The position numbers were made by a program, and so were the translations under genes. From Rhodococcus sp. HM1 (GTDB lineage: Bacteria > Actinomycetota > Actinomycetes > Mycobacteriales > Mycobacteriaceae): a DNA stretch of 64,000 nucleotides. The DNA is taken from positions 1 through 64,000 of the forward strand of contig NZ_JALPTB010000017.1 in NCBI RefSeq assembly GCF_023218075.1, in the 5' to 3' direction. Each line of letters starts with the position of its first letter. The first letter of the stretch is position 1. Below are positions 17,388-19,576 of this stretch, in pieces. The notes under the pieces were generated by a model, which was given only the letters and a program-made list of their open reading frames with translations, was not told the origin of the DNA and did not search any database.

Positions 17388-17415
17388 AGTATGCCCCTTT
17401 TCTGGAATTAGTCAA
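17388..17415 (-). promoter_or_regulatory. furA-katA promoter with FurA-type operator, leaderless
   Basis: On the minus strand TTGACT (17415-17410) and CATACT (17393-17388) are separated by 16 bases, AATTCCAGAAAAGGGG. The run CTTGACTAATTCCAGAAAAGG closely matches the FurA operator known upstream of mycobacterial furA-katG. The predicted transcript begins at or within a base or two of the furA ATG. Confidence 0.75.
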
Positions 17416-18188
17416 GAAAAGGGGCGCTTCGCCCGTGTGCCTTTGTGGCGGTCGGAGGCGCCACAAAGGCACACGGGCGGCTGAGCCGCACGGCAGACCA
17501 GCATGCGGTCGGCGCCCTTCTGGAAGCGGTAGTCGACCTCGACGACTTCACCGGCGATGTTCCGTCCCCGAAGCTCCGCGAGCAACTCGTCCAGGCGCGG
17601 ATAGAGAACCGACGATCCCGAGGCCACGAGCGGAAAGATCCGCACCTCGCCGCTGGCGACGCGCACGAGTTCGACGATCGCGTCGACGTGGAAGGCGTGG
17701 TCGAGGCGGTCGGAATAGCTGAACAGCAGGTGTGAACTGAGCACGAGGTCGAAGCTGTCGTCCGCGAACGGCAGGGACGGCAAGCGCCCGGCGACGTAGT
17801 GCTGCGGGTGCCGGCTCATGTCGGCGGCGAACTTCCGGACCGCGTACTGCCGGACGCGCCGGTGCTCGTCCGGGTCGACGAAGAACGTCCAGTCGTACTC
17901 GTCGGCGTGAGCGCGGACGTATCGGTCACCGCGGTCGGTCTCGGCTGCCGCGACGGCGGCCAGTTCTTCCGCTCCGTTACCGAAATAGGCCGTGTCACAT
18001 GCAGTTACATCGCCGCCGCGGTCGTTCACTTCGCCGGTGAACCCGGCCGCACCTCCAGGGCAGTCCAAGATCCGTCGGAACAGGTCGTCGGCGGTGAGGC
18101 CGAACATCGCCCGGTACTCGTCCAGCGAACGGGAACTGATCAGCATCTCTCCGATACCGCCGGCCGGAACAGGATCGTCGTGGGTCAT
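17412..18188 (-). CDS. Class I SAM-dependent methyltransferase-like protein with palindrome-encoded tail
   Basis: A 258-residue protein. The N-terminal half holds DDLFRRILDCPGGAAGFTGEV and DVTACDTAYFG, which look like the SAM-binding motif I/II region, and RLPSLPFADDSFDLVLSSHLLFSYSDRLDH (about 145-175) is a typical motif IV. The substrate is unknown. GAGGAACC lies 4 bases before the ATG. The last 20 residues (PVCLCGASDRHKGT and onwards) are encoded by the palindrome at 17431-17478 and by the furA -35 region, so the natural end was probably near DRMLVCRAA and the tail was gained by insertion of the repeat. The stop codon lies inside the furA -35 element. Confidence 0.72.
   Translation of the reverse strand: MTHDDPVPAGGIGEMLISSRSLDEYRAMFGLTADDLFRRILDCPGGAAGFTGEVNDRGGDVTACDTAYFGNGAEELAAVAAAETDRGDRYVRAHADEYDWTFFVDPDEHRRVRQYAVRKFAADMSRHPQHYVAGRLPSLPFADDSFDLVLSSHLLFSYSDRLDHAFHVDAIVELVRVASGEVRIFPLVASGSSVLYPRLDELLAELRGRNIAGEVVEVDYRFQKGADRMLVCRAAQPPVCLCGASDRHKGTRAKRPFS
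17431..17478. repeat. GTGTGCC-family palindrome, copy 2
   Basis: GCCCGTGTGCCTTTGTGGCG pairs perfectly over 20 bp with its complement, around the 8-base loop GTCGGAGG. Unlike the other copies it lies within a coding region, forming the 3' end of the methyltransferase gene immediately upstream of the furA promoter. Confidence 0.9.
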
Positions 18189-18387
18189 GGGTGGTTCCTC
18201 TCGAATCGAGGCCACCTCACCGGACGTGCCGCCACCGTCCAGGAAGCGAGCGTGATCGACCGCGGAAGAGGCGGCCGGAAAGCACAGTCGACGGGCCGCT
18301 AGGAGTACGGCCACCAACGCTGCGTCACGGTAATCACCGCTCCATTGGAGCACGGCGAGAGATGGTTCGGCAATCGGCCGAACTGCT

Positions 18388-18393
18388 ACGCTG
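18388..18393 (+). promoter_or_regulatory. Probable -10 of the trpS attenuator transcript
   Basis: TACGCT lies exactly 6 bases before the GTG of the Trp leader peptide, the spacing of leaderless actinobacterial promoters. A perfect TTCGGC/GCCGAA inverted repeat (18367-18383) lies just upstream and may be an operator; no clear -35 is seen. Confidence 0.5.
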
Positions 18394-18399
18394 GCCGGG

Positions 18400-18450
18400 T
18401 GATCGTCATCCGACAGGCATGGTGGTGGCTGCGCCGGCAGCCCAATTGAC
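18400..18450 (+). CDS. Tryptophan leader peptide of trpS attenuator
   Basis: A 16-residue frame, (V/M)IVIRQAWWWLRRQPN, with three consecutive TGG codons at 18421-18429 and a TGA at 18448. It starts with GTG directly behind a -10-like TACGCT, so its mRNA is probably leaderless. The codon run is placed so that a ribosome stalled for charged tRNA-Trp covers the first arm of the hairpin at 18428-18443. This is the arrangement of a classical amino-acid attenuator, located 86 bases before the trpS start. Confidence 0.78.
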
Positions 18451-18479
18451 CATGTCCGCGGGCTGTACGCAGCCCGCGA
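18428..18479 (+). promoter_or_regulatory. Transcription attenuator upstream of trpS
   Basis: Segment 1 GGCTGC (18428-18433) pairs with segment 2 GCAGCC (18438-18443). Segment 2, extended as CAGCCC, can instead pair with segment 3 GGGCTG (18461-18466), and segment 3 pairs with segment 4 in the terminator-like hairpin CGCGGGCTG-TACG-CAGCCCGCG (18458-18479). Stalling on the Trp codons masks segment 1 and frees 2 to pair with 3, preventing the terminator. The U-run after the hairpin is weak. Confidence 0.72.
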
Positions 18480-18535
18480 TCGTCGTCCGACCAGATCGAG
18501 GTTCGTGCAGCCCCTGACCATTTCAGGAGCAGTAC

Positions 18536-19576
18536 ATGACTTCCCTTGCCACCAGCGTCGAACGCAGCGAGACTCTTCGCACCGACGTCGCCGCGAACCC
18601 TGGTCGATATCGGGTTCTGACCGGTGAAAGACCAACGGGCCCATTGCATCTGGGACACTACTTCGGCACCGTCGCCGAGCGTGTGCGTCTGCACGACTCG
18701 GGCGTGGACACCTTCGTCGTCCTCGCGGACTACCAGGTCGTCACCGACCGCGATGCCATCGGCCGGGTCCGGGACAACGTCTACAGCGCAGTCCTGGACT
18801 ATCTGGCCGCCGGGATCGACCCCGATCGGGCCACGATCTTCACCCACTCCGCGGTGCCGGCACTGAACCAGCTGATGCTGCCGTTCCTGAGCCTGGTCAC
18901 CGAAGCCGAACTGCACCGCAACCCGACCGTCAAGGCCGAGCATGCCGCCTCGGGCCGCGCGCTCAGCGGCCTGCTGTTGACGTATCCGGTGCACCAGGCC
19001 GCCGACATCCTGTTCTGCAAGGGCAATCTGGTCCCGGTCGGAAAGGACAACCTGCCCCATGTGGAACTGACCCGGGTGATCGCCCGGCGGTTCAACGACC
19101 GCTACGGGGCGGTGTTTCCGGAGCCGCAGGCGCTGCTCACCTCCAGCCCGGAAGTACCCGGCCTGGACGGACGGAAGATGTCCAAGTCGTACGGCAACGC
19201 GATCACGTTGTCGATGACCGCCGACGAGACAGCCGCGGTGATCCGCAAGGCCCCGACCGATTCGGATCGGCGGATCACCTTCGACCCCGTCGCCCGCCCC
19301 GGGGTCTCGGCGCTGCTGACCACTACGGCGCTGTGCACGGGCAGCGACGAGCACGAGATCGCCGACACGATCGGCGACGCCGGGGCCGGAGCACTGAAGA
19401 AGATCGCCACGGAGGCCGTCAACGACTTCCTTGCCGCACACCGTCGTCGGCGCGACGACCTCGCCGGGAACCCGGACCACGTCCACGCAGTCCTGCGGGA
19501 GGGTAACCGACGCGCCTGCGAGATCGCCGAGCAGACACTCGCCGAGGTACGAACCGCGATGGGAACGATGTACTGA
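18536..19576 (+). CDS. trpS: Tryptophanyl-tRNA synthetase, probably the auxiliary inducible form
   Basis: A 346-residue class I synthetase that charges tRNA-Trp. The HIGH motif is GPLHLGHY (residues 35-42) and the KMSKS loop is intact (214-218); length is normal for bacterial TrpRS. AGGAG lies 6 bases before the ATG. The gene is preceded by a Trp-Trp-Trp leader peptide and attenuator, as in the auxiliary, indolmycin-resistant TrpRS gene of Streptomyces coelicolor, where poor Trp-tRNA charging induces the second enzyme. That this is a second, antibiotic-resistant copy is inference; the rest of the genome would have to be checked. It stands alone between a methyltransferase and a TTHB210-like gene. 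Confidence 0.93.
   Translation: MTSLATSVERSETLRTDVAANPGRYRVLTGERPTGPLHLGHYFGTVAERVRLHDSGVDTFVVLADYQVVTDRDAIGRVRDNVYSAVLDYLAAGIDPDRATIFTHSAVPALNQLMLPFLSLVTEAELHRNPTVKAEHAASGRALSGLLLTYPVHQAADILFCKGNLVPVGKDNLPHVELTRVIARRFNDRYGAVFPEPQALLTSSPEVPGLDGRKMSKSYGNAITLSMTADETAAVIRKAPTDSDRRITFDPVARPGVSALLTTTALCTGSDEHEIADTIGDAGAGALKKIATEAVNDFLAAHRRRRDDLAGNPDHVHAVLREGNRRACEIAEQTLAEVRTAMGTMY

Follow-up and report, generated by a model that had tools for sequence, protein, structure and literature searches.

The leader in front of trpS in the window (the whole stretch of DNA analysed, 64,000 nucleotides from Rhodococcus sp. HM1) is an attenuator of the kind known from Streptomyces trpS leaders, seen here in a new host. 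It has an additional strand that is conserved, and it is likely to be linked to translation initiation. The gene encodes a second tryptophanyl-tRNA synthetase (TrpRS). The leader has the anatomy collected in Table 1 and is conserved among relatives; the helix of strands 3 and 4 (3:4) and that of strands 3 and 5 (3:5) show covariation, and the hairpin at the trpS start (5:6) is unusually stable. The reading we prefer, with slightly less than even confidence, is that the leader senses Trp codons on behalf of an auxiliary TrpRS and that its output is at least partly at translation initiation, through 3:5 versus 5:6. We infer the stalling of the ribosome, the order of folding, the direction of the response, and translation rather than (or besides) transcription as the controlled step.

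Table 1. Positions of the leader elements and of trpS in the window
Feature	Position	Strand	Remarks
-10-like box TACGCT	18387..18392	+	six bases 5' of GTG
Leader frame GTG...TGA	18399..18449	+	16 codons; probably leaderless (putative transcript start at or near GTG)
Three consecutive Trp codons (TGG)	18420..18428	+	read directly
Strand 1, GGCTGC	18427..18432	+	pairs with strand 2
Strand 2, GCAGCCC	18437..18443	+	partner of strand 1 or strand 3
Strand 3, CGCGGGCTG	18457..18465	+	with loop 18466-18469, partner of strands 2, 4 or 5
Loop TACG	18466..18469	+	between strands 3 and 4
Strand 4, CAGCCCGCG	18470..18478	+	terminator-like stem with strand 3
Hairpin 5:6	18498..18543	+	arms 18498-18517 and 18523-18543; closes Shine-Dalgarno, flanks ATG
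Strand 5, CGTGCAGCCC	18504..18513	+	pairs with 18460-18469 (strand 3 and loop)
trpS Shine-Dalgarno AGGAG	18525..18529	+	read directly
Second trpS, TrpRS of 346 aa	18536..19576	+	TIGR00233 240 bits (cut-off 176.75); PF00579

The leader frame reads V I V I R Q A W W W L R R Q P N and stops at TGA 18447-18449. It is the leaderless 16-codon frame with three TGG codons that a sequence-only reading had proposed, and the span proposed there (18388-18540) holds the entire leader, reaching just into trpS. A TAnnnT box is located 4-8 bases 5' of an in-frame ATG or GTG in 59 of the 65 leaders kept for analysis, compared with 0 of 512 other ATG or GTG codons in the same stretches. The mutually exclusive pairings 1:2, 2:3 and 3:4, of which the same reading had described 2:3 as competing, are all present. 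The RNA from 18399 to 18480 (82 nt) folds at -44.5 kcal/mol, as compared with -31.85 kcal/mol (sd 3.36) for 200 dinucleotide shuffles; this corresponds to a z of -3.76, and one of the 200 shuffles was as good. Helix 3:4 is paired in 95.8% of 144 cells, and its covariation score exceeded that of all 500 shuffles. Helix 2:3 is paired in 112 of 112 cells; because it is nearly invariant, it receives no covariation test. The frame with three Trp codons, the exclusive pairings and the trpS gene downstream are features of a ribosome-mediated amino-acid attenuator, the expression of which would respond to charged tRNA-Trp.

A scan of 17500-19500 against Rfam gave five matches up to E 5 (the best at E 0.074), with no family at its gathering score. 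A covariance model of the leader found the window locus as its sole match in the genome; under stricter filters, it matched in 3 of 197 genomes of the class, namely the window and two trpS leaders that were already known. No Trp-rich leader was seen by eye in the inspected stretch upstream of the genome's own trpE.

Conservation was scored at 117 TrpRS loci with at least 300 bits to the window protein (the search for relatives retained the best 80 of 556, and the duplicates L001 and L141 were left out). These are 81 actinomycete loci, the window included, 22 loci from Bifidobacterium/Coriobacteriia and 14 from other phyla. Of the 81 actinomycete loci, 70 carry a leader containing two or more Trp codons. 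Two loci (L169 and L114) have a leader with one Trp codon, and nine (L116, L126, L127, L134, L138, L119, L008, L012 and L013) show none; several of the nine seem, by eye, to begin directly at a promoter. In the 65 kept leaders, the number of Trp codons is three in 19, two in 45 and one in 1. No leader passed the screen at the remaining 36 loci (Bifidobacterium/Coriobacteriia and the other phyla together); a looser screen showed a W-x-W frame at L040 (Bifidobacterium). The sequence-only reading had named loss of the Trp codons in relatives that keep the gene as an observation against it, and it survived this comparison since two or more are retained at the 70 loci above. A tree with 71 rows places the window inside a supported set of 13 rows (99/94), all of which have the leader; the leader label needs eight changes across the whole tree. 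Comparison among relatives therefore establishes a leader predicted to sense Trp.

For the analysis by clusters, 52 of the 117 loci were dropped: the 22 from Bifidobacterium/Coriobacteriia, the 14 from other phyla and 16 actinomycete loci. The last group consists of L112 (cut by a contig end), L178 (Trp-Arg-Trp), L114 (one Trp codon), the nine loci without a Trp leader, and L117, L160, L161 and L162, in which a Trp-Trp leader is present and no 3:4 stem passed.

A search of the genome for another trpS, as the sequence-only reading had advised, found one (G000:C181:32908-33927), and the window gene is a second TrpRS gene beside this housekeeping copy. No comparable Trp leader was seen by eye in the 400 bases upstream of the latter. 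The window TrpRS resembles the auxiliary, indolmycin-resistant TrpRS and TrpRS II: it is 33-34% identical to the housekeeping TrpRS, and its nearest solved structure is 1yi8 (presumably from Deinococcus), which is of the TrpRS II type. In addition, a Gln (ADYQ) is aligned with a His (PDLH) of the genome's other TrpRS, and 1yi8 also has Gln here. This is a position that we take to matter for indolmycin. Resistance to TrpRS inhibitors conferred by the window trpS is plausible.

At E <= 1e-60, this type of TrpRS was found in the window's own genome and in none of the 17 other congeners searched (1 of 18). At E <= 1e-70, 18 of the 401 genomes searched in the family have it, and 48 of the 393 searched in the class. 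In a first survey of 61 genomes, the match was below 1e-97 in 12, and all 12 list two TrpRS matches. Copies of trpS are also present on plasmids, 83% identical on two from Rhodococcus and 73% identical on two from Microbacterium. Because the neighbours of the plasmid copies are unlike those of the window gene in the three plasmids inspected, trpS appears to be mobile together with its leader.

The same trpS type with a Trp leader was also noted near IS elements, with varied neighbours, at L141 and L142 (Rhodococcus plasmids) and L143 (Microbacterium plasmid). In the window, a divergent gene with a methyltransferase domain (PF08241, 24.7 bits) occupies 17415-18188 on the minus strand. The segment upstream of it (18200-18356) has a counterpart of 77% identity on seven Rhodococcus plasmids; in the single plasmid of these that was inspected, the counterpart adjoins a methyltransferase-domain gene. 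By eye, 17420-17480 holds a long inverted repeat (around CGTGTGCCTTTGTGGCG / CGCCACAAAGGCACACG), close to where the methyltransferase frame has its 3' end.

The extra strand, strand 5, is the word just 5' of the trpS Shine-Dalgarno in close relatives and is complementary to strand 3 and the loop. In an alignment of 16 of the 23 close relatives (the other seven differ in loop length or register), 158 of 160 cells of 3:5 are paired, compared with 20-57% in slid registers. Out of 500 shuffles, three reached the covariation score and three the paired percentage; two of the five measures (doubly changed pairs and further pair types) were not above the shuffles. On all 23 relatives, the six core pairs are formed in every row together with 88 of 92 loop pairs, and permuting the partners among the 10 distinct types gave a p of 0.0016. 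In L174, two positions of the 3:4 loop differ, and both of their partners in strand 5 follow. Strand 5 has an A opposite the U of the loop in 10 of the 16 aligned relatives; this fits pairing with strand 3, not with strand 1.

In distant families the words differ and the 3:5 pairing persists: 30 of 50 leaders (4 of 54 having been left out) beat their shuffles at p <= 0.05. When the loci were grouped into 33 clusters at 80% protein identity, with the best duplex taken from up to 170 bases, 14 of the 33 had p <= 0.05 (Fisher p 1.3e-13), and swapped strands from other clusters were as good as a cluster's own 3:5 in 23% on average. The RNAalifold consensus of the 23 sequences contains 1:2, 3:4 and a helix that joins the Trp codons to strand 5, and neither 3:5 nor 5:6; the Trp-codon/strand-5 helix has five pairs, none of which is changed on both sides. 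A literature search, with the S. coelicolor attenuation paper outside its scope, found neither a third partner strand nor a Rhodococcus trpS leader.

Strand 5 doubles as the 5' arm of hairpin 5:6, the 3' arm of which holds the Shine-Dalgarno. In the window, the z of this hairpin is -3.85 (-3.8 in a repeat), and it is below -2 in 12 of the 23 relatives. For 50 other annotated starts, which are CDS of four plasmid loci and not the window's own genes, the mean z was 0.20 and the lowest -2.01. Five loci of one genus (L172-L176) gave no signal of start-hairpin stability. Covariation was not found in 5:6, with 75.6% of 238 cells paired as against a shuffled mean of 75.9. Pairing of the Shine-Dalgarno taken alone beat the shuffles (p <= 0.05) in 3 of 23 relatives, with a median p of 0.165. 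In other words, stability is the one line of evidence for hairpin 5:6. In the 3:4 state of the window, the Shine-Dalgarno is paired at 0.80 and the ATG at 0.33. The Shine-Dalgarno pairing in the 3:5 state is 0.76, as against 0.80, when the ribosome is stalled on the window leader; averaged over the relatives, it is 0.62 in the 3:5 state as against 0.84.

The balance between the two folds depends on where the RNA ends. For window RNA that reaches no further than strand 5, the best fold includes 3:5 with no ribosome (-56.9 versus -53.6 kcal/mol for 3:4) and also with a ribosome on the Trp codons (-32.9 versus -32.2 kcal/mol). At full length, 3:4 with 5:6 is preferred over 3:5 by 9.1 kcal/mol with no ribosome (-70.6 versus -61.5) and by 2.9 kcal/mol in the stalled state (-43.7 versus -40.8). 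The median cost of 3:5 over the 33 clusters is 0.2 kcal/mol at the strand-5 end and 7.8 at full length; it lies no more than 1.5 kcal/mol above the best fold in 24 of the 33 clusters at the former and in 3 of 33 at the latter. It should be mentioned that the stopping point at strand 5 was picked at the end of the pairing, a choice that favours 3:5. Equilibrium folding with the Trp codons or the stop codon masked did not move most of the full-length folds of the 23 relatives to 3:5, and stalling lowers the preference for 3:4 with 5:6 in only 11 of the 23. Since the full-length equilibrium favours 3:4 with 5:6, a kinetic switch would be required, and the modelled energies look like those of a folding path timed by transcription.

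The following course of events is proposed. When charged tRNA-Trp is scarce, because of Trp starvation or inhibition of the housekeeping TrpRS, the ribosome would stall at the three Trp codons and cover strand 1, leaving strand 2 free to take strand 3. The 2:3 pairing would prevent strand 4 from capturing strand 3 before strand 5 is transcribed. After that, strand 3 and the loop would pair with strand 5, which would keep strand 5 off the Shine-Dalgarno, so as to allow translation of trpS. When Trp is plentiful, 3:4 would form at once and strand 5 would close 5:6 over the ribosome-binding site, keeping trpS off. The equilibrium models show no opening of the start upon stalling; we therefore only infer this step, and termination at 3:4 is a serious rival.

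The sequence-only reading had taken the 3:4 stem as a transcription terminator, with the missing strong U-run as its weak point. Intrinsic termination usually needs a U-run. The segment directly 3' of strand 4, ATCGTCGTCC, confirms the weak point: no U-run follows 3:4 in the window, the longest being of one U, and a U-run of at least four is found in only 5 of 33 clusters. Because the U-run is absent from the window and most relatives, and because the Shine-Dalgarno hairpin and the covarying 3:5 suggest a translational output, the terminator as originally put forward is not supported. Classical ribosome-mediated transcription attenuation, in which 3:4 would terminate when Trp is plentiful and 2:3 would prevent this upon stalling, is possible, although we are inclined to doubt it. 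On this account, helix 3:5 and the start hairpin would have a secondary role, or one in the stability of the mRNA or in basal expression. The presence of 1:2, 2:3 and a covarying 3:4 speaks for this account, as do the five clusters with a U-run, and the auxiliary trpS of S. coelicolor is reportedly a transcriptional attenuator. The leaderless trpL2-trpS of S. lividans, too, is called an attenuator in the part of the source covered, despite having no U-rich stretch after trpL2 (PMC8079986). Against it are the absence of a U-run from the window and most clusters and the covariation of 3:5, which it leaves unexplained.

The idea that 3:5 is restricted to leaders without a U-run was dropped because the 33 clusters show no association (Mann-Whitney p 0.30 for the five clusters with a U-run of at least four, and p 0.68 with the cut at three). 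Helix 3:5 is no weaker where a U-run exists, which is uninformative for or against classical attenuation.

Termination that is Rho-dependent or otherwise independent of a U-run, under the same stalling at the Trp codons, would be in keeping with the U-run-free leader, and a Rho-dependent reading has been offered, in a passage of PMC1262725, for actinobacterial cys leaders that have no terminator. This seems improbable to us, as 3:5 and the start hairpin would be left unexplained. It is very improbable that strand 5 is a by-product, either of the reuse of words in G+C-rich leaders, by which strands 2, 4 and 5 would come to resemble each other, or of conservation for the start hairpin only. The core words GGGCTG and CAGCCC are indeed nearly invariant, the gain per cluster in the best-duplex search is modest, and a few clusters (L123, L156, L007 and L011 among them) have their best duplex at or past the start of homology, but the bases of the 3:4 loop, which are free of any pairing need, change together with strand 5 (L174 included), and the A of strand 5 that faces the loop U agrees with pairing to strand 3, not to strand 1.

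The preferred reading, a Trp-codon sensor acting at least partly on translation initiation, may be compared with known systems as these are described in the passages of the cited papers covered here. Attenuators before Streptomyces trpS genes, including trpS2 of S. avermitilis, were predicted in 2005 (PMC1262725). They share with the window a Trp-codon leader before trpS, and trpL2 of S. lividans is leaderless, as the window leader probably is, and lacks a U-rich stretch; it has one Trp codon, as against three in the window leader (PMC8079986). These passages on Streptomyces trpS leaders describe neither a 3:5 helix nor a start hairpin such as those of the window. SCO3334, a trpS of S. coelicolor, is stated to be under WblC control (PMC7157823), and an auxiliary TrpRS is stated to give indolmycin resistance in Streptomyces (PMC9437257, PMC6804068).

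Outside the trpS leaders, translation attenuation by leaderless Cys-codon ORFs has been reported in mycobacteria (PMC9031893, PMC13236596). These resemble the window leader in having a short ORF, probably leaderless in the window too, with a run of one codon, and they are from the same order; they reportedly control downstream translation, as is proposed for the window. The amino acid and the genes are different. The ilvB1 attenuator of M. tuberculosis, also from the same order, has an amino-acid-rich uORF together with an anti-terminator and a terminator (PMC13236596). A U-tract forms its end, and its action is described as Rho-independent termination, whereas the stem of the window has no U-run. 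The LEU element of actinobacterial leuA combines a leader peptide containing regulatory codons with an RNA fold in which the Shine-Dalgarno box is paired with the run of codons (PMC1262725); its fold, a pseudoknot, and its gene are different from those of the window.

In its broader form, the preferred reading is that of a five-plus-one-strand attenuator present across many actinomycete families and on plasmids, in which a third conserved partner of strand 3 locks the ribosome-binding site. This is advanced tentatively, at less than even confidence. It is with similar reserve that we propose a single sensor of Trp codons in this attenuator, driving translation initiation by a folding path that is timed by transcription. 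Where lineages lack the U-run, such a mechanism may have taken the place of the intrinsic terminator. If this is true, the textbook four-strand attenuator would be extended by a fifth strand that ties the reading of codons to the ribosome-binding site, and working Trp leaders without a U-run would be accounted for in this group. The natural variants would make translational versus transcriptional output directly testable. Furthermore, a spare TrpRS, which possibly gives tolerance to natural inhibitors, would carry its own sensor between chromosomes and plasmids.
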